A DNA stretch of 57,288 nt from positions 1 through 57,288 of the IMG/VR virus record IMGVR_UViG_3300020404_002135. The stretch is one strand, 5' to 3'. Within the stretch, counting starts at the first letter, position 1, and every line of letters begins with the position of its first letter. The notes under the pieces are model-generated. The model ran no database searches. It saw only the letters and a list, made by a program, of their open reading frames with translations, and had not been told where the DNA came from. The DNA is from a virus. The position numbers and the translations under genes are program-made. Positions 27,297 through 57,036 of this stretch are shown piece after piece.

Positions 27297-30200
27297 ATGC
27301 CACTTAATAAATTAGATAATTTTATCAAGAACACAGACGGAAGGACACTTTATGTCAATCCGAATGATCTTGAAGCCACCGATAGTATAGAAAACCAAGG
27401 AAATTCTCTTGCTAAACCTTTTAAAACGATTCAAAGGGCATTAATAGAGTCTGCCAGATTTTCATATCTTAAGGGAAACAATAACGATAAAATCGAACAA
27501 ACTACAATTTTGCTTTTTCCAGGCGAGCACGTTGTAGATAATAGACCTGGTTTTGCTATCTTTAATGATGCAAGTTTAGGTGTAAGAGTTACCTCTCCAT
27601 CTGGTACAAACTCTCCACCTTCTGAAGAAATTGCTTTAAATTTAGATTCAAATTTTGATTTGAATCAAGTAGATAATCAATTATATAAGTTTAATAGTGT
27701 AAATGGTGGTGTAATTGTTCCTCGTGGTACATCACTTGTTGGATTAGATTTAAGAAAGACAAAGATAAGACCAAAATATGTACCTAACCCAACTGATAGT
27801 AATGCTCCAGGAAGTGCCATATTCAGAATCACTGGTACATCATATTTCTGGCAGTTTTCAATATTTGATGGAAATGAATTAGGTACTGTATATACAGACC
27901 CAGTTGATTTCTCAACAACTAATCGTTCAAAACCAAGTTTCTCTCACCATAAATTAACTTGTTTTGAATATGCTGATGGTGTTAACAAGGTATCTGGTTA
28001 TGATTTAACTGACCTTGATATGTTCTATAGTAAACTATCAAACGCATTCAGTTCTATAAGAAATATACCAGAAAAATATCCTGATGATCCAGATGCTTTC
28101 GCGAAGCAAAGACCAGAGTGGGAAATTGTAGGTGCATTTGCTGCGGATCCATTATCAATTGCAAGAATTGAATCTGGTAGTGGTGGAACAGCAGGACCAG
28201 TTATAACAGTTACTACTGTATTGGATCATGGATTTAATGAAGGCACTCCAATTAAGATTGATGGTGTTGGAGTTCCAGACAACGTAAACGATTATAATAT
28301 ATCCACAAAAGTACAAAGTATAGTTAATAGTAAAACTTTTACATATCTTTTACCTTATGTTCAACCAAACTTACTAACTGTACCTGATGTTAGTGGTGCA
28401 GTAGTGACAATTGAAACTGATACAGTTTCTGGTGCTTCTCCTTACATATTCAACATATCATTGAGATCTGTATTTGGTATGCAGGGTATGCATGCGGATG
28501 GATCAAAAGCATCTGGTTTCCGTTCAATGGTTGTTGCCCAGTTTACTGGTATATCTTTACAAAAAGATGATCGTGCATTTGTAAAATATAATCCTGCCAC
28601 AAGAGCTTATGAAGGTAGATCTATAAGTAAAAAGACAGGAGCAGAATTATCTTCTGGATCATCTTCATTAGATAAGGCAAAAGTATATCATTTAGATTCT
28701 GACGCAGTTTACAGACAAGGATTTGATACTACACATATCAAGATCAGTAATGATTCTGTTATGCAAATTGTGTCTGTATTTGCGATTGGATTCAATAAGC
28801 ATTTTGAAACCTTAAGTGGTGGAGATGCTTCTATTACTAACTCTAACTCTAACTTTGGACAGTTCTCTCTTGCTTCAGATGGATTTAGAAAAGCTGCGTT
28901 TGATAAAGATAATAGATCTTACATAACATCTATTATTACACCAAGATCAATTAATGAATCAGAAACAAATGTTGATTGGCAATCATTAGATGTTGGTCTT
29001 ACAACAGCAGTTGGTATCTCTAGTCAATTATATCTCTTTGGATTTAATAACTTTGACGATGCTCCTCCAGTATTAACACAAGGTTATAGAGTAGGTGCGA
29101 AAAGAGATGACACCCTTTCTGTTAATTTAGGTGCAGGTATTGGTACATTTACCTCTGACATCTGCATGGTAGATAATATTGTCAGTAGTGGAACAACTTC
29201 TCTTGGAATTAATGTAGCATATAAAGAGTTCCCTGTAATATCGGGACCTGTAGAAAATATATTCAATATCGGTACACACAATATTTTAACTGGAGAAAGT
29301 GTTGTTATTCAGAGTAGCGATGGAGATCTTCCAGAAAATATAGTTGCTAATAGACTTTATTATGCAATTAGAGAAAGTTCTACTACAATTAAATTAGCAT
29401 CATCTAAGGCAGCTGCCGATAGCGATTCAGCAGTCTCAATATTTGGTGGAAGTAATTTAAAGATAATCAGTAGAGTTTCTGACAAGAGTGCAGGAGATGT
29501 TGGACATCCAGTTCAGTTTGACTCTAACGTTGGTAACTGGTATATTCATACCACACATCCAAATGATATTTACAGTGCATTAAATACAAACGGAGTTTCT
29601 CTTCTTACTCAAACAACTGATAATAGTTTCATAGTAAGAACTGATGATTCTAGAAGTTTAGATGAAAAATTATACAAAGTTAGAATAGTTGTTCCAAAAG
29701 ACGCTGAAAATGCTAAAGAACCTGCTGAAACTTTTATTATTCAAGAATCAAGTTCTACTGGATTTAGAAATGATGCAGATCCAACAAGGGTAAGTATTGG
29801 TGCTACAGACCATGACTTTGATAGAAATCCAAGATTCATTAGTACATGTATCGCAGGAAGTGCAGGTGTTGTAACTGTAACTTCAGAAGTACCACATGAT
29901 TTAAGCACAGGTAATTTAGTTAACGTTGTAAACGTAAGAAGCACAAACAATACTGGGGGTGCATCTAATTTAGGATACAACGGAAGATTTGCAGTAACAG
30001 GTATTGTAAATGATCATACATTTACATATTCAACTACCGACGTTGATAATATTATCCACACACCAGGTGTATTTACTAGCGATACTTCAGTAAGAAATTT
30101 AGATCTACCAAGATTTGAGAAAAATGATTCTAAGAGAAATTATTATGTATATCGTTCTGAAGTAATTGCAGATTACATCAAGGATGTACAGGATGGTGTT

Positions 30201-32627
30201 TATCATGGTTACGTTTTAAATGCGAACAATGCAATATCTGAAGAATTTACTGATTTCAAATACAGTCAAAATGTTACTAACCTCTATCCAGAACTGGATA
30301 AAGACAATGTAAATGATAATCCTGGTCCTACAAAATCTTTTGCAAAGAGAGCACCTATTGGAGAAGTTGTATCAAATGACCTTACAAAAAGTTTAACAAG
30401 AGAAACTTTAGATTCATTTATAGAAGAGTTTAAATTTGGTAAATTAATAACTGGTGTTACAACAGTATTTACTAGTGTAAATGCAGGAATTGCAACAGTT
30501 ACACTTGATAGAGAGCATGGATTCGCAGGTGTAAACACATATAGCACATTTGCAGGTGGTAGTGGTTACAATGAAGGAGTTCATTATAATGTTAAACTAC
30601 TTAATGACGGAACTACAACTTGGGATGGTGCAACCGCAAAAGTTACAGTCGGAACTGGTGGAACAATAACAGATGTAAGTTTCATCTCTAGAGGATCTGG
30701 ATATACTGATGCCGAAAAATTAGACTTTGATACTTCAGTTTTAGGTTCTGGTACAGGTGCAGGAGTTACAATATCTTCTTCTGGTATCTCTACAAATATA
30801 GGAGATGCGGTTCAGATAACAGGAATAGGAACTACTGGAGAAGGATATTATAAGATTGCTTCAATACCTTCTAAGAATCAAGTTTCAATTGCTATAACTT
30901 CAGGAGATATAGAGATTCATTCAGGACAATACCTATTGAATCTAGGACCTTCTGTTCATGTAAACACGATTGCAGGACCAGTTTTAGGTATTACTACCTT
31001 TACCACTGATTTTGCACATGGTTTAACTGCAGGATCTAAAGTTGAATTTAAAGATTCAAGCAATAATAAATTAGGAGTCTTTGTTGTTAACGAAAAAGTT
31101 GGTGTTACCACATTTACAGTTAAGACATCTAATGCTCTATCATCTAGTTCTTACATATTACCTCATGGTGTTGATTCAAATAATGCTCCTTCTGATGCTG
31201 TAACTGAGAATCTAGGTACAAGAGGTACACCTTCTTATGATAATGATAAATTCTTCTTACATGTTCCAATTACAGATGGAGATGTAGTAGCTGTTACTGA
31301 TTCTACTCTTTGTGGTATTGCAACCTTAAATCAATTCCCTGTTGGATCATACATTCAGATTGATAATGAGATAATGAGGATTTCTAATTCCTCATTCAGT
31401 GGAACTAATAATAATGAATTAAATGTTATTCGTGGTGTGTTTGGAACTCCAAAAGAATCCCATGCAACAGGATCAATCGCTAAGAAGATAAGACCAAGAG
31501 CGATTGAACTTAGAAGACCATCTATCATTCGTGCTTCTGCCCACACATTTGAATATCTTGGTTTTGGTCCAGGTAACTATTCCACAGGTTTACCTCAAGT
31601 ACAAGTAAGAACTTTAACAGATGTAGAGTCCTTCTTAGCACAGTCTCAGAAGAAAGCTGCGGGTGTTGTTGTTTATACTGGTATGAACAGCGAAGGAGAC
31701 TTCTTTATTGGTAATAAGAAATCCAGTTCTGCAACTGGACAAGAAAGAACATTTGATGTTCCATCTCCTACTGTAACAGGACAGGAAGTTGGTAGATTAA
31801 GTGTTGTATTTGATGAAGTATTAATCAAAGAAAGATTAAGAGTTGAAGGTGGTAAGTCTGGAACAGTATTATCTCAGTTTGATGGTCCTGTAACATTCAA
31901 CAAAGAAGTTAGACTTAGAAATACAGGAACAATTACTGGAGTCCTTAAATTAGATGATACTACACCATCAACAAGTAGAACTACTGGTGCTCTTGTTGTT
32001 GCAGGTGGCATGGGCATATCTGGTAAGGCAACATTTGGTGATGAAATTATTGTTGACTCAGGTATCATTCCTGATGTTGATAAAGGAGCATACATTGGTA
32101 AAGAAGATCAAGCATTTGAAGAAGCATACATTGATGGAATCAGACTTGGTGTTGGTAGCACAACAACTATTGATACCAGAGGTGGAGATCTTGTTATCAG
32201 TGCTGCGATTGGAAGTAGTGTTTCAATCAGTACAGTTACAACAATCACATCAGATCTGAATGTAGAGGGAGACATTACTGCCTTCTATACTTCTGACCGT
32301 AGATTGAAGGATAACATTACTCCTATTGATGATCCTCTTGATAAAGTTATATCAATCAGTGGTAATACATATGATTGGAATAATGAATCTGGAAAAGAAG
32401 GTAAGGATGTTGGTGTAATTGCTCAAGAGATCGAACAGGTTCTACCCGAAGCAGTTACAACCCGTAAGAATGGTTATCTTGCTGTTGATTATGATAAAGT
32501 TGTTCCTCTACTTGTAGAAGCAATTAAGGAACTAAGTGGTAAAGTTGATAAATTAGAGAAAGACTTGAAAGACCACGAGTGTTGCAATAAATGCCATCAT
32601 TGTAATGATCACAACAACCCTAAATAA
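27297..32627 (+). CDS. Giant tail fibre/tailspike with C-terminal S74 self-cleaving chaperone
   Basis: 1776 residues, the longest gene here. Residues 1-120 (GRTLYVNPNDLEATDS; PFKTIQRALIESARFS; LLFPGEHVVDN) open a pectate-lyase-like beta helix; more beta-helix signal lies at about 450-560 (NSNSNFGQFSLASDGF). GGSGY/GSGY repeats occur near 1085-1145. The C-terminus (about 1664-1776) is a peptidase S74 intramolecular chaperone: Ser1666 and Lys1671 in SDRRLKDN fit the catalytic dyad, followed by GVIAQEIEQVLPEAV and a coiled coil. The chain ends in an unusual CCNKCHHCNDH cluster. It is preceded by a late box. Confidence 0.88.
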   Translation: MPLNKLDNFIKNTDGRTLYVNPNDLEATDSIENQGNSLAKPFKTIQRALIESARFSYLKGNNNDKIEQTTILLFPGEHVVDNRPGFAIFNDASLGVRVTSPSGTNSPPSEEIALNLDSNFDLNQVDNQLYKFNSVNGGVIVPRGTSLVGLDLRKTKIRPKYVPNPTDSNAPGSAIFRITGTSYFWQFSIFDGNELGTVYTDPVDFSTTNRSKPSFSHHKLTCFEYADGVNKVSGYDLTDLDMFYSKLSNAFSSIRNIPEKYPDDPDAFAKQRPEWEIVGAFAADPLSIARIESGSGGTAGPVITVTTVLDHGFNEGTPIKIDGVGVPDNVNDYNISTKVQSIVNSKTFTYLLPYVQPNLLTVPDVSGAVVTIETDTVSGASPYIFNISLRSVFGMQGMHADGSKASGFRSMVVAQFTGISLQKDDRAFVKYNPATRAYEGRSISKKTGAELSSGSSSLDKAKVYHLDSDAVYRQGFDTTHIKISNDSVMQIVSVFAIGFNKHFETLSGGDASITNSNSNFGQFSLASDGFRKAAFDKDNRSYITSIITPRSINESETNVDWQSLDVGLTTAVGISSQLYLFGFNNFDDAPPVLTQGYRVGAKRDDTLSVNLGAGIGTFTSDICMVDNIVSSGTTSLGINVAYKEFPVISGPVENIFNIGTHNILTGESVVIQSSDGDLPENIVANRLYYAIRESSTTIKLASSKAAADSDSAVSIFGGSNLKIISRVSDKSAGDVGHPVQFDSNVGNWYIHTTHPNDIYSALNTNGVSLLTQTTDNSFIVRTDDSRSLDEKLYKVRIVVPKDAENAKEPAETFIIQESSSTGFRNDADPTRVSIGATDHDFDRNPRFISTCIAGSAGVVTVTSEVPHDLSTGNLVNVVNVRSTNNTGGASNLGYNGRFAVTGIVNDHTFTYSTTDVDNIIHTPGVFTSDTSVRNLDLPRFEKNDSKRNYYVYRSEVIADYIKDVQDGVYHGYVLNANNAISEEFTDFKYSQNVTNLYPELDKDNVNDNPGPTKSFAKRAPIGEVVSNDLTKSLTRETLDSFIEEFKFGKLITGVTTVFTSVNAGIATVTLDREHGFAGVNTYSTFAGGSGYNEGVHYNVKLLNDGTTTWDGATAKVTVGTGGTITDVSFISRGSGYTDAEKLDFDTSVLGSGTGAGVTISSSGISTNIGDAVQITGIGTTGEGYYKIASIPSKNQVSIAITSGDIEIHSGQYLLNLGPSVHVNTIAGPVLGITTFTTDFAHGLTAGSKVEFKDSSNNKLGVFVVNEKVGVTTFTVKTSNALSSSSYILPHGVDSNNAPSDAVTENLGTRGTPSYDNDKFFLHVPITDGDVVAVTDSTLCGIATLNQFPVGSYIQIDNEIMRISNSSFSGTNNNELNVIRGVFGTPKESHATGSIAKKIRPRAIELRRPSIIRASAHTFEYLGFGPGNYSTGLPQVQVRTLTDVESFLAQSQKKAAGVVVYTGMNSEGDFFIGNKKSSSATGQERTFDVPSPTVTGQEVGRLSVVFDEVLIKERLRVEGGKSGTVLSQFDGPVTFNKEVRLRNTGTITGVLKLDDTTPSTSRTTGALVVAGGMGISGKATFGDEIIVDSGIIPDVDKGAYIGKEDQAFEEAYIDGIRLGVGSTTTIDTRGGDLVISAAIGSSVSISTVTTITSDLNVEGDITAFYTSDRRLKDNITPIDDPLDKVISISGNTYDWNNESGKEGKDVGVIAQEIEQVLPEAVTTRKNGYLAVDYDKVVPLLVEAIKELSGKVDKLEKDLKDHECCNKCHHCNDHNNPK

Positions 32628-32644: not shown

Positions 32645-34819
32645 ATGCCTAATTATAAGAAGTCGTTTAATTTTCGTAATGGTGTCCAAGTTGATGACGA
32701 CAATTTCATCGTAAATCCTAATGGTCTGGTTGGAATCGGTACATCGGTTCCGACAGAGTTTTTAGATGTCAGGGGAACTGCGAAAGTTGTCGGAGTAGCA
32801 ACGATAAAAAATACGTTTATTGAAGAAGGTGCTATAGTTTCGGGAGTCGCAACTATAGGGCAAGTTGAGGTTGGTATAACATCCATACTGCCATCAGGTA
32901 TTGTTACTGCAACTTCCCCATCAGGAGTTGTTACTTATTTTGGAGATGGTGGTAGGTTAATAAATTTACCTACATCTCAATGGATTGATGTAAATCCAGG
33001 TTTAGGTTTCTCAAGCATATATTCTGCAGGGTATGTTGGTATCGCAACTGAACTTCCATACAATGCACTTCAAATAGGTGGAACAGCAGATGATGAAGAT
33101 TCACCAGGTGTTGGTATAAATTCGACAGGAGATATTAAGGCAACAGGTATAATAACAACAAGACAACTTTCATTTGAAGGTCCTAATTCAGGAATAGTTG
33201 GTGTTACATCTATCATTGATAGCACAGCATTACCACTTTTGAGAGTATCTCAACTACAATCTGGTGTTGATGCTTTACAAGTTGATGGAGATATTAGTGC
33301 CAATGGAAGAATTGTTGGTACAGCTGTAAGTAATGTAATACCATTCTTATATGCTAATTATAGTGATTTACCTTCACCTGTAACATATCATGGTGCATTT
33401 GCTCATGTTCATGCAAGCGGAAAAGCATATTATGCTCATGCAGGTGCATGGTTTGAGTTAGTTAACAAAGAGGCAGATGCAAGAATTGGAACAGGAACAG
33501 AAGGATTTAATCTTGGATCTGGTAATGTAGTTGTTTTAAATGCATCCGAAATAAAATCAGGTTTCTCAACAATAGGGGTAAGCACAGTAACTGATGTATT
33601 CCATGTTGGAACTGGTGGAACTATTCTTGCTAACAATGGACAATTTATTGGTATAGGAACTGTTCTTCCTACTTCTGATCTTCAGATTCGCAAACCAAGT
33701 GGTGTTGCAAAGATAGAAGTAGTTTCTGATGGAGACAATGCTGTAATTTCTGTTGGACAATCAGTTGGTGTTGGTGCTAGCTCTGCAGCAATGAAGTTTG
33801 GTGTTGCTGAAAAAACACTTGATATTGTTAATAACGACACAGGAGATTTTAACTTAGTTATTCATGGAGGTCCTGCAGGAGTATCAACAGGTAACTTTAA
33901 CTTTGTTAATGGACAATCTAATGGAGATTTGATGACCCTAACCTATCAAGGTAATTTAGGTTTAGGTGTTGCAATCCCAGAACATAAGTTACATGTGGTT
34001 GGTACATCAACTGTTACAGGTAACTCATTTGTTGGTGGAAACTTCAAGATAGGTGGATCAATTGATGCAGGAACATTTAATTTACCAAATGTTATTCCTT
34101 CTAAGATTAACAACGCAGGAGTTAATACTTTCGGAAAAGTATATGTAAACTCTAGTATTGGTGCAGGAACTAGCATTGGAATTGGAACTGCTGAACCTCA
34201 AGTTAGTTTTGATGCAACTGCTAAAACAGGATTAATTGGAAGACTTGGAATTAATACAAGTAATGAATATACAAGCAACCCTGTTAGTGGTGCTTTGGTA
34301 GTTGGTGGACAAGCAAACTTTGGTGCTGTTGGTGTAGGAACAACCTCTATTGCATACCTATTCAATGAACAGTTTACACCTATATTCTCTTGCTTCAAAC
34401 CTGCAGCTTTCTATAACTCTCAAGTTAGAGTCTTTAACGCAGGGTTACTATGCGACGAAAATAGTTTACTAGGTGTTGGTACACACGAACCTTTAGCTGC
34501 TGTTGACTTCGCTAAAGCAGGAAGTGGAGGTGGCATAGGTGTCAGTTCTTCCAGAGCAATGAGAACTCCTCATTCAACAAATGCTCAAAGAGTTGGTGTC
34601 ATAACTCAAACTGGATCTATAATTTATAATACAGATGCAGGGGAACATCAAGCATATTGTGATGATGAATGGGTAGGATTTGCTAATCAAACAGGAATTG
34701 TAACTGCTGCAAATGGATTCACAAGTGGAACTGGAACACCTGTTCAAATAAGTGTGGTGGGATCTACATTAACATTTACAGTTGCAGGTATTGGAAGCAC
34801 AAGTTTGACTTTATCTTGA
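32645..34819 (+). CDS. Tail fibre protein
   Basis: 724 residues. At least four GIGTxxPxxxLDVxG-type modules are visible (near 30-50, 330-350, 445-465 and 510-530), with many VGxGT beta repeats, as in other fibres of the cluster. A central YANYSDLPSPVTYHGAFAHVHASGKAYYAHAGAWFELV segment (about 235-272) looks like a distinct His-rich domain, and a similar surface-type motif (GEHQAYCDDEWVGF) is near the end. Probably a distal fibre part. Followed after 8 bases by a halogenase gene. Confidence 0.75.
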   Translation: MPNYKKSFNFRNGVQVDDDNFIVNPNGLVGIGTSVPTEFLDVRGTAKVVGVATIKNTFIEEGAIVSGVATIGQVEVGITSILPSGIVTATSPSGVVTYFGDGGRLINLPTSQWIDVNPGLGFSSIYSAGYVGIATELPYNALQIGGTADDEDSPGVGINSTGDIKATGIITTRQLSFEGPNSGIVGVTSIIDSTALPLLRVSQLQSGVDALQVDGDISANGRIVGTAVSNVIPFLYANYSDLPSPVTYHGAFAHVHASGKAYYAHAGAWFELVNKEADARIGTGTEGFNLGSGNVVVLNASEIKSGFSTIGVSTVTDVFHVGTGGTILANNGQFIGIGTVLPTSDLQIRKPSGVAKIEVVSDGDNAVISVGQSVGVGASSAAMKFGVAEKTLDIVNNDTGDFNLVIHGGPAGVSTGNFNFVNGQSNGDLMTLTYQGNLGLGVAIPEHKLHVVGTSTVTGNSFVGGNFKIGGSIDAGTFNLPNVIPSKINNAGVNTFGKVYVNSSIGAGTSIGIGTAEPQVSFDATAKTGLIGRLGINTSNEYTSNPVSGALVVGGQANFGAVGVGTTSIAYLFNEQFTPIFSCFKPAAFYNSQVRVFNAGLLCDENSLLGVGTHEPLAAVDFAKAGSGGGIGVSSSRAMRTPHSTNAQRVGVITQTGSIIYNTDAGEHQAYCDDEWVGFANQTGIVTAANGFTSGTGTPVQISVVGSTLTFTVAGIGSTSLTLS

Positions 34820-34827
34820 TCTAATTT

Positions 34828-36306
34828 ATGAAAAAAATTGTTATTGTTGGGTCTGGTTCATCTGGACTAATGGCTGCTGCTATGTTCAAAAGATTCTACG
34901 CAGGTAGAATAAAGGTAGAGATATATTACGACAGTAAGAAAAAAAATATAGGTGTTGGAGAAAGCACAACACCTGCATTTGTAGATTTTCTTAAAAGGTT
35001 TTTAAAAGTTGAAATTGGTGATTTCATTAAAGATACTGGAAGCACTGTAAAGTTAGGAATAAATTTCAAGAATTGGACAGGAAGTAAAGAATATTTTCAC
35101 GGATTTAATGCGTGTAACATAGAGGGTACAGGAGTTGATTATCCAGAATCTTTATATTCAATTCCAAATGGCACTTACAATGGGGGAACTTTACACCATA
35201 AACCAACAACAACAGTTCCTAGTCATGATTTTTACTATGATCATGCTTTTCATATAGACACACAGATCGTAACACAATATATTTTAGATGATATTGAAGA
35301 TGAGATAGATCGTATTGATGATGTGGTGGAGAAAGTAAATTCAGATGGTAAAAGTATACAAAGTATTATATTTAAAAACAGTGGAGAGGTAACTGCTGAT
35401 TTTTATGTTGATGCTTCTGGATTCAATAGTATTTTATTTAAACATTTAAACCCTGATTGGGTTGATATCACAGGTGATCTTCCATTAGATAGAGCAATCC
35501 CACAACAAATACCTCATAAACTTGTAGAAATACCTTCATATACACAGGCAGAGGCAACAAAAGATGGTTGGACTTGGCAGATTCCATTAAAGAAAAGATA
35601 TGGAACTGGTTATGTATATTCATCTAAGTTTACTACTGATGAAGAAGCAAAGAAAAATTATAATGAGTGGTTAAAAAAGAATCATGGTGTTGAATTGAAT
35701 GAAGATCCTAGAGTAATTCATTACAAACCAGGATACTACAAGAAAAATTGGATAGGAAATTGTTTATCTGTTGGTCTTGCGAGTGGATTTATTGAACCAT
35801 TAGAATCTACAGGACTTCATATAGTTTATAATCAATTGCAATTCTTTATACAAAATAATACTACTCTTAAGTTTTTAGATTTTGATAAGATTAATTATAA
35901 TAATTTCAATGAAAAAAGTTATGTAGATATTTTTAATTTTATTTGTCTACACTATGCTACAAACAGGGTAGATTCTCCTTTCTGGAAGTATATGACTGAC
36001 AACAAAACTGATTGGATGAAAGCATACGAAGAAAAATGTTCTATTGAATTTATACCATCTGGAGTTTCAGATAAAGATTCTCAATGGCATGTTGATAGTT
36101 TCATACAAGTTAGTAATGGTTTAGAAATGATAAATGTAGATTCTGTGAATAAATTTGTAAATAATTTACCAAAAGCAAAAGCAATTTTAGAGGAGTGTAA
36201 GTCAACCCATCAGTTACAGGAACGTGTTAAAAATAAGGGTAGATCTGTACCTCATAGATCTGTTTTAAATGGTTCAGTCATAGTTAAAAAGAAAGTTTGG
36301 GGATAA
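34828..36306 (+). CDS. Flavin-dependent tryptophan-halogenase-like enzyme (copy 1)
   Basis: 492 residues. FAD-binding GSGSSG at 8-13 and GVGES at 42-46; Lys75 in TVKLGINFKNW lines up with the catalytic Lys (Lys79 in PrnA) that carries the haloamine; W248-T-W250-Q-I-P is the WxWxIP motif that blocks monooxygenation; GFIEPLESTG at 320-329 contains the active-site Glu326. Such enzymes add chlorine, bromine or iodine to aromatic substrates using reduced flavin. A cyanophage halogenase (VirX1 of Syn10) has been characterised. The gene lies between a tail fibre and a glycine-rich adhesin; substrate unknown. Confidence 0.9.
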   Translation: MKKIVIVGSGSSGLMAAAMFKRFYAGRIKVEIYYDSKKKNIGVGESTTPAFVDFLKRFLKVEIGDFIKDTGSTVKLGINFKNWTGSKEYFHGFNACNIEGTGVDYPESLYSIPNGTYNGGTLHHKPTTTVPSHDFYYDHAFHIDTQIVTQYILDDIEDEIDRIDDVVEKVNSDGKSIQSIIFKNSGEVTADFYVDASGFNSILFKHLNPDWVDITGDLPLDRAIPQQIPHKLVEIPSYTQAEATKDGWTWQIPLKKRYGTGYVYSSKFTTDEEAKKNYNEWLKKNHGVELNEDPRVIHYKPGYYKKNWIGNCLSVGLASGFIEPLESTGLHIVYNQLQFFIQNNTTLKFLDFDKINYNNFNEKSYVDIFNFICLHYATNRVDSPFWKYMTDNKTDWMKAYEEKCSIEFIPSGVSDKDSQWHVDSFIQVSNGLEMINVDSVNKFVNNLPKAKAILEECKSTHQLQERVKNKGRSVPHRSVLNGSVIVKKKVWG

Positions 36307-36335: not shown

Positions 36336-37490
36336 ATGTCTGTATCAATATCAAAGGCAGGACCATTTTTTGCTTCAGGACCTATAACTTTTAGTGAGTT
36401 AAGGAGAACTTTTAGAGCACAGTCTCGTAAAACTACTGCTAGTGGGTCTGAAACTTTTGCTTCCGATGTTGCTCCTATTAGTATGTCAGAGTTGAAGAGA
36501 GATACAAATCCCACTAGTGCAAACCCAATAGTTCCAGATGCTACAGAAAATTCTTCAATAGGTTCTGTTAGCGATGTTACTTTGTCTCAATTTAGAAATA
36601 GTATAAAATTTTATTATATTCAACAAACTGGATCTGATATCTATTTTGATATTGATGCATTAACTTGGAACAATAATCTATCAAAAACTATAAACAAAAC
36701 AATGTTTATAGATGGAAGTATAGGTTCTGATAATGCACTTTCTGCTGCAGCTGCATTTGAACAGTCTCCTGCATATAATATTTTATTTGATGTTTCTGGA
36801 ACTATCAAGGGTGGTCCAGGATTGGGTGGTGGAAAACCTGGTAATGTATCAATTACTGGACAGACTGGTGGAACTGCACTTTCGATTATTTCAACTGGTG
36901 GAGAAAATTTAGTTGTAAATATAAGATCTTCCGCAAGAATTTATGGTGGAGGTGGTGGAGGAGAGAAAGGTGCTACTGGAGCTCAAGGTGCTACTGGATT
37001 ATGCCAAGACTTTGAAACTGTTCGGGACTGTAATAGTTGCCCTGATTGCCCAGAGGGATGGACATCAACAAGTGGTTGTTACTCTGGAGGAGAGTGTAGT
37101 AGACGAAGAGCTTGTAACTGGTGGGGAAGTTGTTGGTTTATCACGACTGGTTGGTGGAGATTTGATGACTGTCTTAATGAATATGAGGTAGCTGGTGGAC
37201 TCGGTGGAGAAGGTGGCGATGGTGGTACTGGAAGAGGATTTGGAAATGAGTCTGGTGCATTACAAGGAGATAACGGTGGATCACCTGATCCTGATAATGG
37301 TTGTAACTCTACTCAAGGACAACCAGGAGAAGTAGGTGGAGCTGGTGGAGAGTGGGCACTAGCAGGTGGTGATACTAACGCTTCTGGTACGGGCGGATTA
37401 GCAGGAAAAGCAATTGCAGGAACAAGTTATTCTGTAATAGGATCTATTAGTTCTACTACAATTAAGGGGGATTATCCTGCCACAACTTGA
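36336..37490 (+). CDS. Glycine-rich adhesin-like protein with Cys/Trp-rich insert
   Basis: 384 residues. The N-terminal half includes two 'ITFSELRRTF' / 'VTLSQFRNSI' type repeats that look like attachment motifs. From about 165 on there are poly-Gly loops (GGPGLGGGKPG, YGGGGGGE, GGLGGEGGDGGTG) like those of T-even gp38 adhesins and similar tip proteins. Between Gly blocks sits an insert of about 60 residues (225-285) with nine Cys and seven Trp. Position after the fibres fits a tail-tip receptor-binding protein. A perfect late box precedes it. Confidence 0.7.
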   Translation: MSVSISKAGPFFASGPITFSELRRTFRAQSRKTTASGSETFASDVAPISMSELKRDTNPTSANPIVPDATENSSIGSVSDVTLSQFRNSIKFYYIQQTGSDIYFDIDALTWNNNLSKTINKTMFIDGSIGSDNALSAAAAFEQSPAYNILFDVSGTIKGGPGLGGGKPGNVSITGQTGGTALSIISTGGENLVVNIRSSARIYGGGGGGEKGATGAQGATGLCQDFETVRDCNSCPDCPEGWTSTSGCYSGGECSRRRACNWWGSCWFITTGWWRFDDCLNEYEVAGGLGGEGGDGGTGRGFGNESGALQGDNGGSPDPDNGCNSTQGQPGEVGGAGGEWALAGGDTNASGTGGLAGKAIAGTSYSVIGSISSTTIKGDYPATT

Positions 37491-49800: not shown

Positions 49801-50008
49801 TGGACAAGGTTTTGGACAAATTCGTATCAAACCATACGATCATGCTATCAGTGGATCTACAGTTATTATAAAAACATCTTCGGAAGAAGAGAGTAATAAA
49901 CTTGCAGATTATTTGAGATCTGATGAAGTGCATCAAATGGTTTTAAAGAATAGAATAGTTAATACTAACTCAAAAGAATTATTCAGAACTATTCCTGATA
50001 TTTTATGA
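46889..50008 (+). CDS. Helicase fused to the C-terminal half of an adenine methyltransferase (R-M-like)
   Basis: 1039 residues. Residues 115-270 are an SF2 helicase front half: KHQKEF, Walker A-like AKCRAGKST at 140-148, VFDEAH at 238-243 and SGTAH at 266-270; VLTKTANVLG and REQWTQFAFRGG (about 427-460) fit helicase motifs V and VI. Residues 776-790 (KFSATVGNPPYTD, NPPY at 784-787) are motif IV of a gamma-class N6-adenine methyltransferase, and the rest resembles a target-recognition region, but motifs X, I, II and III are missing; they lie in the next gene. Residues 1-105 (ETIHTYEDRH, RDHEIHAWLKI, ETYKI) vaguely resemble T5orf172-type GIY-YIG nucleases. The layout resembles Type ISP or IIG restriction enzymes. 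Confidence 0.75.
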   Translation: MNIYLDGFKGNPSAFGLGETIHTYEDRHKGGDYGKSKQDLAAVGSARIKRGWWTDFDGRDHEIHAWLKIQRGITQTGRETYKIEEGHGLSIDVVKDLIEEKFFSNNVEIKEYRNLRKHQKEFVSEITSTWNEWNEYLLFAKCRAGKSTMVLSSIVENNVKVSLVVSYRNSPKQSWRDDSQQFQNFDNIVFIDIRDGEVDQFKTEIEYWMETDKQIVLYSTIQAPNRYKNLPCNIDLIVFDEAHLGYQGDQWITLKNYFDTKVLYVSGTAHKILEDFPRFRFVYSYFEEQLYKLQNIEGYKDSPQMRLILAKYESNEYQDLYGDDPDAMGNIFRVNKDENDFAEPILVDEFMSKVFTQDGIKYNKRILKNCRHIMITLPSMASCHAFVDYFKSTRFKPLVVTSDTKENSDTIRSHISANTSTVILTKTANVLGLTAEGIDTVMNCAEGSSREQWTQFAFRGGSTKRNSWDVIDFCPERCFTTIRNMYFTACDLNHELTESEYELLDLVPIFEYFSDFEEVTPERLNEILSNDVDSAISLISGIVSQLDFLKLGDIEFDNFQKSAKLSSWSSFTVNENNANAKSNKKLTSSSKFSTHYDKSEIAQKTETIQAYMERIGLVIFHMIKNKSTPKSVDSILNSKYYENDTGDTTGIIKACLEQKIIPKTWINRINQGIIDIEYSMSKDECGTLQKLATTRKNQKTLSLDILDRIIPTKTKPTDKLKIDGDPSGLHSLYAIENKSWEPNDITVWENDPTHRYAITQIDAKINVTDDPFNYNMKFSATVGNPPYTDTSTVTGATTGGCAKTLDTHFYLSAMERSDYVSEVIRSKHFAKSTSKFRRTLFSTSGVVSIESLSPDTFPSISMTETCICTWKRGYTGLTKLTYLDGTVKDIQLTPDTCIRFTNPDFVSDVPNNMGHRYQRGDLNLNQLIKGEYPMITTMGGKNGEMQITKVDKSQYTCCVNQHGVVMNSKYGGQGFGQIRIKPYDHAISGSTVIIKTSSEEESNKLADYLRSDEVHQMVLKNRIVNTNSKELFRTIPDIL

Positions 50009-50409
50009 AAAGAAACGATCATAATAAAAATGTAGGATCTGTAATTGAAAGATCAGATGATAGGATAAATGCTACGAGCGAAGTGTTTACACCTATGGAA
50101 GTTTGTGATAGAATGATAGATAGTATACCAGAGGAGATGAAGGTAAATCCTAACTCTAAATTTCTAGATAATTCAGCAGGTAGTGGTAATTTTTTAGTAA
50201 CTCTAAAGAATAAATTACTTCAATATCATGATGAAGATCATATATTAAATAATATGCTATATGCAGTGGAACTTATGGAGGATAATCATCTTGAATTGTG
50301 TAAAAGATTAGGTGTTGAACCTGATCATCCGCATTATGTTTGTCATGATGCATTAACTTATGATTATAGTTTTGGAGAACCAGTTGGATTAGAGGCATTT
50401 TATGAGTGA
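50005..50409 (+). CDS. N-terminal (SAM-binding) half of an adenine methyltransferase
   Basis: 134 residues, ATGA overlap with the preceding gene. It carries motif X FTP (28-30), motif I DNSAGSGNFL (55-64), motif II YAVELMEDNHLELC (86-99) and motif III CHDALTYDYSF (113-123), then stops where motif IV NPPY should follow; that part is in the upstream protein. Together they make one full gamma-class N6-adenine methyltransferase, split at the motif III-IV boundary and with the pieces in reverse gene order. The stop is a true TGA, and the next ATG overlaps it by 8 bases. Confidence 0.8.
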   Translation: MKRNDHNKNVGSVIERSDDRINATSEVFTPMEVCDRMIDSIPEEMKVNPNSKFLDNSAGSGNFLVTLKNKLLQYHDEDHILNNMLYAVELMEDNHLELCKRLGVEPDHPHYVCHDALTYDYSFGEPVGLEAFYE

Positions 50410-50896
50410 GCAAAGGCAACTTTTTCCACCAACAGTCGTTATCAAAGATAACATCAAAATACCAGACGGATGGATTGATAAACTTGAAGAGTGGTGTTTA
50501 AAATACGGAAAATATGTTGAACATGGTAGACTTACTACCACATATGGAACAGCAAACCAACCACATGCAGTTCCATGGATTATGAATGTTCTGGATCTCA
50601 TAGCTCCAGAGGAGGGATTTGATAATTCTTGGGTTCAAATATATGAACCTGGTGGATTTCATCCAATACATAATCACGCAGGAACAAATATAAGTGGTTC
50701 TGGTTGTCTATTCTTAAATGATGGGCAATCTACTTATTTTCAAGATCCACTACATCAAAGTAATACAGCAACTTCTAAAGTTGAGGTAGGTGATGTATTA
50801 ATATGGGATCCAGACATATATCATTTTAGTCCACCTGTCATGGAAAAAAGGATTATTCTAGCATTTAATTTAAAAAACATTGAAGAACCAAAATGA
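50402..50896 (+). CDS. Fe(II)/2OG-type oxygenase
   Basis: 164 residues. VQIYEPGGFHPIHNHAG holds the iron-site His (HxxHNH, about 85-90); GSGCLFLN, KVEVGDVLIWDPDIYHFSP holds the distal His and EKRIILAFN the Arg that would bind 2-oxoglutarate. This is a compact double-stranded beta helix. Overlaps both neighbours (8 and 4 bases), inside a run of oxygenases. Substrate unknown. Confidence 0.75.
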   Translation: MSEQRQLFPPTVVIKDNIKIPDGWIDKLEEWCLKYGKYVEHGRLTTTYGTANQPHAVPWIMNVLDLIAPEEGFDNSWVQIYEPGGFHPIHNHAGTNISGSGCLFLNDGQSTYFQDPLHQSNTATSKVEVGDVLIWDPDIYHFSPPVMEKRIILAFNLKNIEEPK

Positions 50897-51783
50897 TTAC
50901 TAATTTTTCTGAAATGATAGCAGAGTACGATAACGTAATAACTGCTGATGACTGTAAACAGATTATCGAACAATTTGAATATGATAACCGTAAATCTAAA
51001 GGAATTACAGCTTGCGATACTCATGACAATGTAGCAAATGAGAATTCTATTAAGAAATCAACAGACTTATGGATATCATCTTGGCCAGAGTGGCAAAAAT
51101 GGGATCAATTCTTTTATGAAGCACTTTCTCCCTATGTAAAAAAGTATTTGACATTTGTTAAGCAAAAACTAGGGGATGAGGTTCAATCTCTCAGTGCATT
51201 GGTTGATTCTGGATATCAGATACAAAGGACTGAAGTAGGAGAAGGTTATGGTTGGCATGCTGATGATGATTATGGACCTATTTTAGATACAATCGTATAT
51301 CCACTGAGGGGATATAGAGATTCTGGATCTATCTTACAGGCAAGAAGATTATTTACATACATGTTTTATCTTAATGATGATTTTGAAGGTGGGTGCACAC
51401 AATTTAGAGTTGGTGGAGAAAAGGAAGATATACTCTCAGTTAAACCAAAAACTGGTAAATTGATTTGTTTTCCTGCTTCGTGGTATTTTCATCATAGAGG
51501 AGACATGGTTACTGAAGGTACAAAATATGTTTGTACTGGATGGTTAAGTGATCATGTAACTGCTTACACAAATGAAACCACTAGTTTGTCTGCTGAATTT
51601 AGGAGAGATGCTAGGAAATCGGGTAGGAAAATGGTATTGCAGTTTAATGAAAACACTGGTAGAATAGAGGTAGATAAAGATATGCAAAAGGGAGAAACAA
51701 AAGAAGGAAGTGGATACGAAGGTTTATATCCATCGTTATCCAGTATCGAAACAGTAACCAATTCTGAACAAGAGAAAATTTAG
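50893..51783 (+). CDS. Prolyl-4-hydroxylase-type Fe(II)/2OG oxygenase
   Basis: 296 residues. YQIQRTEVGEGYGWHADDD (HxD), RRLFTYMFYLNDDFEGGCTQF, KPKTGKLICFPASWYFHHRGDMVTEGTKYVCTGWL (distal His and Lys contacting the keto acid) match P4H-type oxygenases found widely in cyanophages. It may hydroxylate a protein or other metabolite. Overlaps the preceding oxygenase by 4 bases. The C-terminal 60 residues are basic and extra to the core. Confidence 0.88.
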   Translation: MITNFSEMIAEYDNVITADDCKQIIEQFEYDNRKSKGITACDTHDNVANENSIKKSTDLWISSWPEWQKWDQFFYEALSPYVKKYLTFVKQKLGDEVQSLSALVDSGYQIQRTEVGEGYGWHADDDYGPILDTIVYPLRGYRDSGSILQARRLFTYMFYLNDDFEGGCTQFRVGGEKEDILSVKPKTGKLICFPASWYFHHRGDMVTEGTKYVCTGWLSDHVTAYTNETTSLSAEFRRDARKSGRKMVLQFNENTGRIEVDKDMQKGETKEGSGYEGLYPSLSSIETVTNSEQEKI

Positions 51784-52426: not shown

Positions 52427-52630
52427 ATGATGAATGATTTTTTAGACAATCTTGGAGCAGATCAGTATCAAAAGATGCATAAGACTCCAAAGAAAAAGAA
52501 AGAAAAGGATCCACTATTGGATGAATTGGAAGAACGGATCTTAGAAGGTCCTGTTATCTTTACTCCAGATGAGGAGTTTTTAAAATTAGTTGAAGAAAGA
52601 ACCAAGAAAAAGAATGAGCAAAAAGATTAA
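52427..52630 (+). CDS. Small charged protein, unknown
   Basis: 67 residues, tandem ATG start. Lys/Glu-rich (KMHKTPKKKKEKDPLLDELEERIL; VEERTKKKNEQ). It overlaps the halogenase start by 17 bases. No family recognised. Confidence 0.6.
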   Translation: MMNDFLDNLGADQYQKMHKTPKKKKEKDPLLDELEERILEGPVIFTPDEEFLKLVEERTKKKNEQKD

Positions 52631-54326
52631 GAGTGTATGTATTGTAGGTGGTGGATCATCAGGTTGGATGTCTGCTGCCACATTTGCAACACAACTTCCA
52701 AACATTGACGTTACTATCATTGAGAGTCCAGACTTTCCTATATTGGGAGTTGGAGAAAGCACTCTTGGTGGTATAAAGCATTGGTCTTCATTAATAGGTC
52801 TTGAGGATAAAGATCTGTTAAAAGCAACAGATGGTAGTTACAAGTTAAGTATTAAGTTTACAGATTGGTTAGGGAAAAATACAGGAGGATTTCATTATCC
52901 TTTTGGAGAAGCACAAAGACCTATTGAACAAGTCGGACAAAATGATTGGTGGTTCTTAAAAGGGAATAGAGGTGGTCTTGATAGTAATTCATTTGCACGT
53001 TGCCATTATCCAATAGCTGCAGTTGCAGAGAGAGGTAAAATATCTGAAGATAGTATGGGTAAGACACCTGGTTTTTCATTTGTTCAAGATGTAGCATTTC
53101 ATTTTGATGCAACAGCACTAGGACAATATCTTAAGAAGAAAATATGCTTACCAAAAGGTGTAAAATTAATTGCTTCAACAGTTAAGAAGATTAATACAAA
53201 TGATAATGGAGTAGAGTCTCTAATTCTAGAAAATAAAGAGAAAGTAACTGCTGATTTATACATTGATTGCACTGGTTTTAAGAGTTTACTATTGGAGGGT
53301 GCATTAGGAGTTAAATTCAATAATATTGATACTCTGATTCCAAATAATAAAGCATGGGCAACACATATACCATACACAGATAAGAATAAACAATTACAAC
53401 CATTTACAAATTGTACTGCTCTCAGTAATGGGTGGACATGGGATATACCTCTATGGTCACGCATTGGTGCAGGGTATGTTTATAGTGACAAGTATATTAG
53501 TGATGATGAAGCTCTTAAAGAGTTTAAGGATTATATCAAGACAAAGTACAGTGGTGCTCCATTTGATGATCTTGAATTTAAATCCATTACAATGAGAAAT
53601 GGATTGCATGAAAAAACATGGGAGAAGAATGTAGTTGCGATTGGTTTATCCAGTGGATTTATTGAACCATTAGAAAGTACAGGATTGATGACCACTTATG
53701 AGTGGTTACTATCATTGATCTACACATTACGCAAAGGTTTTGTTAATCAATGGGATAGAGATGCATTTAATTATGCACTTAAAAATATTTTCTATGGACA
53801 CGCAAACTTTGTTGGTATGCATTATGCACTAAGTCCAAGAAATGATACTCCATATTGGCAGGACATAACAGAGAAAGTTAGAATTGATCCAACAGTTAAT
53901 AATTCATTGAACTATGAAACTGATATGGGAGAAAATCTTGAATTACTCTACTATGCTACCTCTGCATACAAATATCATCAGTTTAGGGAGGGTAGTGCAG
54001 GATTCCAGTGTATTGCTGCAGGAATGAATTATTCTCCAATTGATGCAAAGATGCATAGTTCATTAGGAAAGTTAAAAGGATTTGACCCAGATATGCATTG
54101 CGATAGATTACAGGAATTGTATAGTGAAACTGAAAAGAAATATATAAGTTATGCAAATAGTTGCCCTTCATTATATGAATACCTATCTAAGAATATTCAC
54201 GAAAGTAAAAACGACTTTACTTTCATTGGTACAGATAAGGAGGTTCCGAAGCAAGTCTATAACACCATGCCAGAACGTGTCAAGAGAAAAGTTGCAAAAC
54301 CAAAAGGTTTTGTCACCTATGAATGA
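52614..54326 (+). CDS. Flavin-dependent tryptophan-halogenase-like enzyme (copy 2)
   Basis: 570 residues from the ATG at 52614. FAD-binding GGGSSG at 12-17, GVGES at 45-49, catalytic Lys77 in YKLSIKFTDW, W274-T-W276-D-I-P, and GFIEPLESTG at 348-357 with Glu354, so all key residues of PrnA/RebH-type halogenases are kept. It is longer than copy 1 by inserts after about 85 and at the C-terminus and looks distant from it, so the two are not a recent duplication. It sits among 2OG oxygenases. Substrate unknown; VirX1 of cyanophage Syn10 is a possible relative. Confidence 0.9.
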   Translation: MSKKIKSVCIVGGGSSGWMSAATFATQLPNIDVTIIESPDFPILGVGESTLGGIKHWSSLIGLEDKDLLKATDGSYKLSIKFTDWLGKNTGGFHYPFGEAQRPIEQVGQNDWWFLKGNRGGLDSNSFARCHYPIAAVAERGKISEDSMGKTPGFSFVQDVAFHFDATALGQYLKKKICLPKGVKLIASTVKKINTNDNGVESLILENKEKVTADLYIDCTGFKSLLLEGALGVKFNNIDTLIPNNKAWATHIPYTDKNKQLQPFTNCTALSNGWTWDIPLWSRIGAGYVYSDKYISDDEALKEFKDYIKTKYSGAPFDDLEFKSITMRNGLHEKTWEKNVVAIGLSSGFIEPLESTGLMTTYEWLLSLIYTLRKGFVNQWDRDAFNYALKNIFYGHANFVGMHYALSPRNDTPYWQDITEKVRIDPTVNNSLNYETDMGENLELLYYATSAYKYHQFREGSAGFQCIAAGMNYSPIDAKMHSSLGKLKGFDPDMHCDRLQELYSETEKKYISYANSCPSLYEYLSKNIHESKNDFTFIGTDKEVPKQVYNTMPERVKRKVAKPKGFVTYE

Positions 54327-54556: not shown

Positions 54557-55381
54557 TTGGAATCTAATAATTTTAGATCATGGAATAGCGATGTGAAAGT
54601 TCCTACTGGTCAACCCGAAGGTGGGTTTACCATTAATACAGGAATCACTGAAATACATAATGAAAGACCTGTACGCTCCGAAGATCCAGACACACTGGCA
54701 ACAGAGAAAAAGGATATCAAAGTTACCGATAGGGATATTGGTGTTCTTTTTCCTTCATTACTTTTTAAATCAAGAGTTGATGATGAAGACTTCATTGACG
54801 ATACTGTTAAAAAAGTATTGGACATGGCAAAGAGAGATGATGCAGGAAGTTGTGCAGGAAATCCAAAAGATCCTTTGGGTTGGTATAGTTATGATAATCT
54901 TCATCAAGCAGAGGGTTTTGAATTAGTTCATGACTTTCTACTGAATGAGGCAGCTGCAGTCTTCGCATATCATGATTTTAAAGTGGATGAAGTCTACCTA
55001 ACTTCAATGTGGGCAAATGTAGGATATAAACCAGAGTATTGCCACATGAATCATACTCATCCAAATTCAATATTCAGTGGAGTATGGCATATAAGTGTAC
55101 CAAATATAGGGACACCCTATGCTCAAACTACAACTTTTAGTGATCCAAGAGCTGGAGCAAGAGTTATTGAACCAAATGTTAACAAAAACTTTGCTGCTCA
55201 TAACTCAGGCACAGTTTCTCCTATTGTAAATAAAGGTAGTTTGTTTTTATTTCCATCGTGGTTGCCACATGGAGTACAACAATCACATGAACCTTATAGT
55301 GTTCCTCGCATTACTATTTCATTTAATGCGATGATGACAGGAGAAATCACAACACGCACCGCACCAATTAAATTTACTTAA
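54557..55381 (+). CDS. Fe(II)/2OG-type oxygenase (TIGR02466-like)
   Basis: 274 residues with a TTG start six bases after CGGAGGT (54544-54550), which decides the start. After a ~70-residue disordered lead, the core shows HMNHTHPNSIFSGVWHIS (HxH plus PNS), TFSDPRAG, FPSWLPHGVQ (distal His) and PRITISFN (Arg), the order of the TIGR02466 / 2OG-FeII_Oxy_5 family. Substrate unknown. Confidence 0.85.
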   Translation: MESNNFRSWNSDVKVPTGQPEGGFTINTGITEIHNERPVRSEDPDTLATEKKDIKVTDRDIGVLFPSLLFKSRVDDEDFIDDTVKKVLDMAKRDDAGSCAGNPKDPLGWYSYDNLHQAEGFELVHDFLLNEAAAVFAYHDFKVDEVYLTSMWANVGYKPEYCHMNHTHPNSIFSGVWHISVPNIGTPYAQTTTFSDPRAGARVIEPNVNKNFAAHNSGTVSPIVNKGSLFLFPSWLPHGVQQSHEPYSVPRITISFNAMMTGEITTRTAPIKFT

Positions 55382-55559: not shown

Positions 55560-55931
55560 ATGGCAGAAGAGGAATACATTCCAGAAGTCAATGACTATGT
55601 AATCTGGACAAATGATCTTGGGACAATCGATAAAGGATGGGTTTACTGGAAAGGTGAACCTGTCGATAATGAAAAAAGAAAGAAGTTTGGGTGGAGACCA
55701 CTTCAGAACTATATTACCATTGAAACTGGTATACGAGATAAACCTGATTGTGAGTATGACAAAAACAACCCACACAAACACATTCATATTTTAGTCTGTT
55801 GCTATGAACATCAATGGCATCAACTTCAGTTTGTCAAGAAACGCAAGAGTAAGCATGACCAACAAATTGTACAAGAGTCCACTCATATGTACTATAACGA
55901 ACCAAAAGAGAATCATAGCAGAGAGTCATGA
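55560..55931 (+). CDS. Cyanophage conserved protein, unknown
   Basis: 123 residues. IPEVNDYVIWTNDLG with KGWVYW suggests a small beta barrel, then ITIETGIRDKPDCEYDKNNPHKHIHILVCCYEHQWHQLQFVKKR, a His/Cys-rich stretch (about 72-105) I associate with a recurring cyanophage protein. Possible metal binding. It overlaps the next oxygenase by 4 bases. Confidence 0.65.
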   Translation: MAEEEYIPEVNDYVIWTNDLGTIDKGWVYWKGEPVDNEKRKKFGWRPLQNYITIETGIRDKPDCEYDKNNPHKHIHILVCCYEHQWHQLQFVKKRKSKHDQQIVQESTHMYYNEPKENHSRES

Positions 55932-56539
55932 GACATACGATATTTCCTGTATCATATTATCAAGGACAACTTGAGAATAATGAAAGGTTGAAGCAGGACT
56001 TGCTACCTTTTATTAATTCGACCAAGAGAACGTTGACTCCACCAGAAGGATGGTTGACCACAAAAATTACGACGAGTCATGAAAGAGACGACATTAATCG
56101 GTTTTTCATGTCTCAAACAGAACTACAGAGACAGTATCATAATTTAATTAAAACTTTCTTCGATAACAAGTTTGAAGTGGAGGTGGACGAATGTTGGTAT
56201 AATTGTTATGAGGATGAAGAATATCAGGAGTCGCACAATCATATTGGCGATCCTTTAGATCCAAATCATTTTGCATGTGTTCATTTTCTATGTTATGATA
56301 AGAAGGTGCATAGTCCATTAACCTTTACGGATCCGATGGGCATCATTCGATCTCATTCATTAGAGTTCGATTCGCACAACTATGAGGAAATCTTCTCTCC
56401 TGACATTAATGAGGGAGATTTGATTATGTTTCCTTCATATCTGATGCATGAGGTTAAGGCAAATAAACCTACGCCTGGCAATCCACGTATCTCAATCGCA
56501 TTTAACTTTGCAGTTACTTCTTACAATTCAGTTCGATAA
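55928..56539 (+). CDS. Fe(II)/2OG-type oxygenase
   Basis: 203 residues. CWYNCYEDEEYQESHNHIGDPL (HxH), FTDPMG, GDLIMFPSYLMHEV (distal His) and PRISIAFNFA (Arg) show the double-stranded beta-helix oxygenase fold of the TIGR02466-like type. It overlaps its neighbours by 4 and 1 bases. Confidence 0.8.
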   Translation: MRHTIFPVSYYQGQLENNERLKQDLLPFINSTKRTLTPPEGWLTTKITTSHERDDINRFFMSQTELQRQYHNLIKTFFDNKFEVEVDECWYNCYEDEEYQESHNHIGDPLDPNHFACVHFLCYDKKVHSPLTFTDPMGIIRSHSLEFDSHNYEEIFSPDINEGDLIMFPSYLMHEVKANKPTPGNPRISIAFNFAVTSYNSVR

Positions 56540-57036
56540 TGGATTTTATCTATGGAAAAGATGTTCCGATTCATATTCGGGACGATTGGTTGAAACAAAC
56601 AGAACAAGAGAACATCTATCGATATTGCCAGCTTGCTTCTTACACTTATGGAGAACAGGATGAAACTGATCTTGCTCCAACTGGATTAAGTGCAGAGATC
56701 AAGTCCTCTGAATTAATATATCGCTTTTTGTTTGAGAAGACACAACCCATTGTGCCAGATCTTTGTCTGGTTCGCATGTATGTAAATTTATTTGCACCGA
56801 ATGAAGTTCCATACTATCATACAGACGCAGATCAGGGAACAACCTTTCTCTATTATCCACACACAGAGATGTGGACACCAAACTTTCTAGGACAGACAGA
56901 GTTCTATGTGAACAATCGATCCTACATGGTGTCACCAGAACCAAATCGATTAGTCTTCTTCAATGCAGAGATTCTACATCGAGCAACATCCTTTCGCAAC
57001 AAACACCGATTCACAGTCGCACTTAAATATGAGTAA
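56539..57036 (+). CDS. Fe(II)/2OG-type oxygenase with atypical codon use
   Basis: 165 residues. VPYYHTDADQG (HxD), NAEILHRATSF (distal His) and KHRFTVALKY (Arg) give the iron and cosubstrate residues. All nine Arg codons are CGN, whereas the rest of the window uses mostly AGA for Arg, so it may be a recent arrival or differently selected. Overlaps the next gene by 8 bases. Confidence 0.8.
   Translation: MDFIYGKDVPIHIRDDWLKQTEQENIYRYCQLASYTYGEQDETDLAPTGLSAEIKSSELIYRFLFEKTQPIVPDLCLVRMYVNLFAPNEVPYYHTDADQGTTFLYYPHTEMWTPNFLGQTEFYVNNRSYMVSPEPNRLVFFNAEILHRATSFRNKHRFTVALKYE

Follow-up and report, generated by a model that had tools for sequence, protein, structure and literature searches.

The second halogenase gene of the window (the whole 57,288-base virus record under study, classed as linear) is almost certainly of the VirX1 type, as judged from its sequence, its position in phylogenetic trees and its predicted fold. 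This gene, hereafter copy 2 (52614..54326, + strand, 570 amino acids), lies among 2OG-Fe(II) oxygenase genes, which are also common neighbours of its relatives in other phages. Enzymes of this type are already known. VirX1, which has been investigated for biocatalysis, was taken from cyanophage Syn10 and is described as a broad-range iodinase/brominase that prefers iodide, is trimeric and accepts many small aromatic compounds; its natural substrate is not named in the review text available to us (PMC8407142). We regard the link between the VirX1 clade and oxygenase arrays, and less surely that with tail fibres, as the noteworthy part of the results. Among the main texts of the open literature accessible to us, we recognized no description of VirX1-clade genes in oxygenase arrays, and the nearest published statement concerns another clade (PMC7824862).

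Resemblance of copy 2 to VirX1

Copy 2 encodes a complete flavin-dependent halogenase, which matches Pfam family PF04820 with 350 bits (E = 2.8e-104; curated cut-off 21) and the PHROG family phrog_2928, 'tryptophan halogenase', with an E value of 2.7e-143. Its start may be the ATG at 52614, which gives the 570-residue product, or an in-frame TTG at 52590. When residues are numbered from the ATG, K77, W274, W276 and E354 are all present, at the positions given in the initial annotation, which had called this open reading frame (ORF) a second, distant halogenase. The two tryptophans belong to the WxWxIP motif (W274-T-W276-D-I-P279), and E354 is the second glutamate in the stretch I-E-P-L-E-S. 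We take the catalytic residues K77 and E354 to be the equivalents of K79 and E346 of PrnA. The dinucleotide-binding motif GxGxxG, as defined for flavin-dependent halogenases in the available text of PMC8407142, is kept as GGGSSG at residues 12-17, and the loss of FAD binding that had been named as a possible objection is not seen. An alignment of 54 clade sequences reveals that G12, G13, G14, G17, K77, W274, W276, E351 and E354 are invariant, and dN/dS values of 0.13-0.19 against four sister contigs indicate purifying selection. These conserved residues and the selection on the gene suggest that copy 2 is very likely to be catalytically competent.

A sequence search of PDB chains with copy 2 ranks VirX1 (PDB 6qgm) first with 349 bits, followed by a chain with 260 bits, and a profile of the clade yields 617 bits for VirX1 and 398 for the next structure. 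The predicted fold of copy 2 (pLDDT 88.7) superimposes on VirX1 with a Z score of 48.0 and an rmsd of 1.7 over 512 residues, compared with a Z score of 42.5 for the next structure. The two proteins have in common the catalytic lysine and glutamate, the WxWxIP motif and the IEPLESTG stretch, and the VirX1 gene likewise resides in an oxygenase array (Syn9/Syn10). They differ in that identity is 36%, the C-terminus of copy 2 is longer, and Syn10 carries a tandem pair of halogenase genes whereas copy 2 has no halogenase gene next door. The closest relative in a named phage is the 'tryptophan 7-halogenase' of Synechococcus phage Sf-CH11 (PV340848.1; 48.1% identity). This gene also has 2OG-Fe(II) oxygenase genes on either side but, unlike copy 2, lies within 2.3 kb of a gene for a giant structural protein.

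Two halogenases from separate clades

The window is read as part of the genome of a marine T4-like cyanophage, with the host predicted from its genes. It encodes T4-type functions (gp59, gp32, gp53, baseplate and tail fibres) together with PhoH, Thy1, CpeT and heme oxygenase, and DNA comparison of its first 25 kb gives a marine single-cell virus and Synechococcus phage S-SRM01 as the best matches. The CpeT and heme oxygenase genes fit the cyanophage origin suggested at the outset.

Copy 1 (34828..36306, + strand, 492 amino acids) matches PF04820 with 288.9 bits and is closest to the flavin-dependent halogenase of S-SRM01 (56.9% identity). Reading of its sequence locates K75, W248 and E326, and dN/dS values of 0.125-0.157 against four sister contigs again indicate purifying selection. 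Upstream are genes for a large tail fibre protein (27297..32627, + strand; phrog_529, 1432 bits) and, immediately adjacent, a tail protein (32645..34819, + strand; phrog_3269, E = 3.7e-66). The gene directly downstream (36336..37490, + strand) has a weak PHROG tail-fibre match, and the S-SRM01 gene in this position is annotated as a gp37-gp38 adhesin tip. The setting described in the initial annotation, with one copy in the fibre region and one among oxygenases, is the one we observe: copy 1 comes after tail and fibre genes, and copy 2 is located between 2OG-Fe(II) oxygenase genes.

Copies 1 and 2 belong to one Pfam family and align by BLASTP over 419 residues with 32% identity, 48% positives and 31 gap positions (E = 6e-54), so the earlier impression of little visible identity outside the motifs was mistaken. 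Copy 2 is 78 residues longer, with most of the excess near residues 97-150 and in the C-terminal part. Their common family and this identity might be taken to indicate that copy 2 arose by a recent duplication of copy 1 and shares its substrate, but the trees leave that idea with next to no probability. A quick tree (85 rows) and a careful one (62 rows) were built with VirX1 relatives and bacterial halogenases included; the careful tree draws on only some IMG/VR rows and omits eight rows that had long branches or looked odd, including S-MbCM6. The two topologies agree. VirX1 is represented by its Syn9 counterpart rather than by the Syn10 gene itself, and copy 2 groups with this counterpart in a phage clade of 28 rows (support 100/99 in the careful tree and 100 in the quick tree). 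The careful tree places copy 1 in another phage clade of 5 rows, on a long stem, whose other members are S-SRM01 and three IMG/VR contigs (100/100). Forcing the two copies together costs 342 log units (AU test, p-AU = 1.5e-82). The copies are not sisters, and a recent duplication is ruled out.

The only member of the VirX1 clade from outside phages in the careful tree is a contig from a deltaproteobacterial metagenome-assembled genome (MAG; L053, JABDFK010000005.1), whose halogenase is 44% identical to copy 2; it may be a phage contig that was binned with the bacterium. The homologues were taken as the best 80 of 590 and the best 80 of 593 confirmed stretches, and the set therefore leans towards close relatives of copy 2.

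The predicted fold of copy 1 is nearest to those of bacterial halogenases (best Z score 42.7), with VirX1 in 48th place (Z score 35.7). The well-supported separate clades, the different nearest structures and the purifying selection on both genes uphold the proposal that the window encodes two intact, non-redundant halogenases, and from clade and context it is a fair inference that their substrates differ. Both genes occur together in three IMG/VR contigs with starts ~17-18 kb apart, near the spacing in the window, and the coordinates indicate that the remaining contigs of this close group stop before the expected place of the second gene.

The presence of two halogenases in one phage is not new: several cyanophages, including Syn10, carry two or three, and such cases have been in print since 2010. 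As far as the accessible parts of these papers go, two prnA genes are given for 2 of 16 cyanophage genomes in PMC3037559, where the lengths of 1593 and 1524 equal those of the two Syn9 halogenase genes, and prnA is marked 'x2' in PMC2984593. At least two separate halogenase genes are present in 9 of the 21 phage records we considered, which were chosen for carrying a halogenase; the nine include two S-RIM44 isolates and the close relatives Syn9 and Syn10.

Oxygenase genes around VirX1-clade halogenases

Two oxygenase genes precede copy 2 (50402..50896, PF13759/phrog_81; 50893..51783, PF13640/phrog_61) and two more follow it (54557..55381 and 55928..56539, each PF13759/phrog_81), all on the + strand. 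A fifth, probable 2OG-Fe(II) oxygenase gene (56539..57036, + strand) matches phrog_274 (1.6e-20) and phrog_81 (2.4e-6), with a PF13640 match below the cut-off (E = 2.6e-4, 22.3 bits versus 27). The family phrog_274 is named DNA endonuclease V in PHROG, a label that is also attached to genes of other cyanophages. Because the product resembles a 2OG-Fe(II) oxygenase, this label may be a transferred error. Each of the sister contigs L003, L004 and L007 likewise has five oxygenase ORFs, of which two precede the halogenase and three follow it, and the arrangement is preserved in sister contigs at 80-87% protein identity.

The flanks of halogenase ORFs were then compared across the homologue set. 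At least one oxygenase ORF lies within 3 kb of 80 of 95 viral VirX1-clade genes, and 34 of the 95 have one within 60 bases. Among bacterial relatives the 3-kb figure is 3 of 86, and the single ORF of the MAG contig has none. Because the oxygenase profiles were seeded with the genes of the window and iterated over this same set of ORFs, distant bacterial oxygenases could be missed in the figure of 3 of 86. The counts cover ORFs for which 4 kb or more of a possible 6 kb of flank was present, namely 95 of 116 VirX1-clade viral ORFs (the window being one of the 95) and 86 of 113 bacterial ORFs. Halogenase ORFs shorter than 200 amino acids were omitted, as were eleven loci that share a contig with another, copy the window or are near-identical (L001, L002, L008, L011, L020, L021, L023, L038, L052, L135 and L167). 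In the clade of copy 1 proper, 1 of 9 listed ORFs (L029) has an oxygenase within 3 kb; L143, L145, L192 and L199 were assigned to that clade by best hit only.

Oxygenase genes are plentiful in these phages (2 to 17 per record), and VirX1-clade genes of S-B64 and S-MbCM6 have neither an oxygenase within 5 kb nor a fibre gene within 8 kb. Both observations could be explained if halogenase and oxygenases were separate cargo that gathers in one variable island with no functional link. However, oxygenases become sparser away from VirX1-clade genes, their density declining from 0.43 to 0.11 per kb. When gene positions in 12 named genomes were subjected to circular shifts, 25 oxygenases were found within 5 kb of VirX1-clade genes compared with 7.1 expected (p = 2e-4), and such an oxygenase occurs in 10 of the 12 genomes. 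By this test no significant excess is seen around halogenases of other clades in phages of the same kind (11 genomes; 10 versus 6.7 expected, p = 0.17). Records W08 and W21, which repeat W03 and W04, were left out of this test and of the fibre test below, and the p values of both are optimistic because the phage genomes are related. These position statistics, and the arrangement preserved in the sister contigs, make chance co-residence unlikely and a functional link between halogenase and oxygenases reasonably probable.

Other genes are found within such arrays. A JmjC_2/Cupin_8 protein is encoded in the Syn9 array, and proteins of this type recall protein hydroxylases. Three IMG/VR stretches of ~21.5 kb (L162, L156 and L151) contain 4-5 halogenase ORFs among 5-8 oxygenase ORFs, adjoining tail-fibre genes. 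DUF6445 (PF20043) proteins are also encoded among the oxygenases of these three arrays, with the match in L162 below the cut-off, and could represent an additional component of the tailoring set.

Candidate substrates

By homology, copy 2 would use FADH2, O2 and halide to form hypohalous acid, which would pass to K77 and then be delivered, with the help of E354, to an electron-rich aromatic ring. The reduced flavin would probably be supplied by the host, because the window and nine other phage records yielded no match to the flavin reductase family PF01613, the one reductase family searched; the control search was positive in 13 of 14 well-known genomes, Synechococcus elongatus included. With its five flanking 2OG-Fe(II) oxygenase genes, copy 2 would form part of a tailoring array. 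On balance we favour this role, in an oxygenase-rich array and away from free tryptophan.

The family name 'tryptophan halogenase' points to free tryptophan as the substrate, and chlorination of the PrnA kind, with an antibiotic-like product as protection for the host, is proposed for cyanophage prnA in the accessible text of PMC2984593 and PMC9964418. Copy 2 indeed has its family, fold and catalytic residues in common with the halogenases acting on tryptophan position 5 (PyrH), 6 (SttH/Thal) or 7 (PrnA/RebH). These enzymes, however, are less similar to copy 2 in structure and sequence than VirX1 is, and copy 2 lacks the Trp4 motif with which free-tryptophan halogenases hold their substrate (groups A or B, as described in the part of PMC8269204 available to us). 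The same patterns detect this motif in 0 of 121 VirX1-clade ORFs and in 23 of 105 bacterial ORFs, and in neither halogenase of the window; the count retained the eleven loci dropped elsewhere and so contains some repeats. Its absence makes free tryptophan an unlikely substrate and leaves the PrnA-type proposal, as worded in the accessible text of those two papers, unsupported for the VirX1 clade. The nearest relative of known activity is VirX1, whose broad range (PMC8407142) also argues against that proposal, which we consider very improbable for copy 2. A substrate other than free tryptophan is thus quite probable.

We examined proximity to tail-fibre genes in the same 12 named genomes. A tail-fibre-family match lies within 8 kb of a VirX1-clade gene in 10 of them (3.6 expected, p = 7e-4), a limit chosen after the distances had been seen, and at 3.5 kb the association is not significant (4 of 12 genomes, p = 0.20). 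Halogenases of other clades have such a match within 8 kb in 1 of 11 genomes, namely the S-SRM01 relative of copy 1. PHROG tail-fibre genes are also present in all five IMG/VR loci examined by hand (L151, L156, L160, L162 and L165), which were picked for long flanks or several halogenases. In the window itself, the fibre genes extend to ~37.5 kb, short of copy 2 with its start at 52.6 kb; copy 1, and not copy 2, is beside the fibres. Two other neighbours were rejected as general marks of the VirX1 clade: collagen-like ORFs, which only 11 of 95 genes have within 6 kb, and large ORFs (>700 amino acids), found near 54 of 95 compared with 7 of 14 in bacteria.

Because the array is usually close to tail-fibre genes in relatives, the most likely target would be an aromatic residue of a virion fibre or adhesin protein that the oxygenases would also hydroxylate, and a fibre protein is accordingly our tentative candidate for the substrate of copy 2. 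A possible representative of this substrate class is the collagen-like tail fibre protein of the window (23550..26189, + strand; PF01391, E = 4.5e-46; Collar domain; PHROG tail fibre).

About as likely as this preferred fibre-modifying reading is one in which the halogenase and its neighbouring oxygenases serve to build or modify a small molecule or surface sugar (a secondary metabolite, toxin or capsule) and not a virion protein. The accessible text of PMC7824862 interprets a cluster of halogenase, 2OG oxygenase (2OGFeDO), cupin and carbamoyltransferase genes in S-SSM6a as a metabolite or capsule tailoring pathway, which is like our array in combining a cyanophage halogenase with 2OG oxygenases. 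Carbamoyltransferase genes also occur in the VirX1-clade loci L165 and L160, and the window has a GDP-mannose-dehydratase-like gene at 42923-43945. Moreover, because VirX1 accepts many small aromatics (PMC8407142, in the part available), a protein substrate is not favoured in particular. Against this, no gene for making a metabolite scaffold or for export was recognized among the window ORFs scanned, and the VirX1-clade arrays of 10 of the 12 named genomes have a fibre-family gene within 8 kb. In addition, S-SSM7 is a phage of the same kind as S-SSM6a, and its halogenase falls outside the VirX1 clade, in a setting of sugar and carbamoyltransferase genes.

The fibre-modifying reading can be extended to a widespread system for decorating virion adhesins, in which VirX1-clade halogenases (1-5 per array) and several 2OG-Fe(II)/JmjC-type oxygenases, encoded near tail fibres, would halogenate and hydroxylate fibre side chains. 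We hold this broader proposal to be rather doubtful. If it is true, the decoration would perhaps tune receptor binding or resist proteases, and it would represent both a natural substrate class for VirX1 and a new post-translational chemistry in phages. The oxygenase-rich and usually fibre-associated neighbourhood of the clade makes the VirX1 substrate question directly testable, with virion fibres set against a metabolite. In the window, the combination of two distantly related, apparently intact halogenases with oxygenases hints at a viral decoration kit.

Sequence variation was also observed around the catalytic glutamate. The form EPLESNG is present in 77 of 121 VirX1-clade ORFs, whereas EPLEST(G/S) predominates in bacterial halogenases; the forms listed for 105 bacterial ORFs do not include ESNG, and copy 2 and VirX1 keep the threonine. 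The threonine position, occupied by asparagine in EPLESNG, adjoins the halide site known from PrnA, and the substitution might bear on halide choice. In one S-PM2 gene (L050:4995-6470) and in the third copy of S-RIM44 (L038:9004-10440), the catalytic glutamate is replaced by glutamine (EPLQATS), and these phage halogenases may therefore be inactive or altered.

Upstream of the oxygenase genes, window positions 46889-50409 encode a 1039-amino acid protein that combines ResIII helicase and Eco57I-type methylase parts and, after it, a 134-amino acid methyltransferase-like ORF. Together these are perhaps a split restriction-modification-like enzyme.
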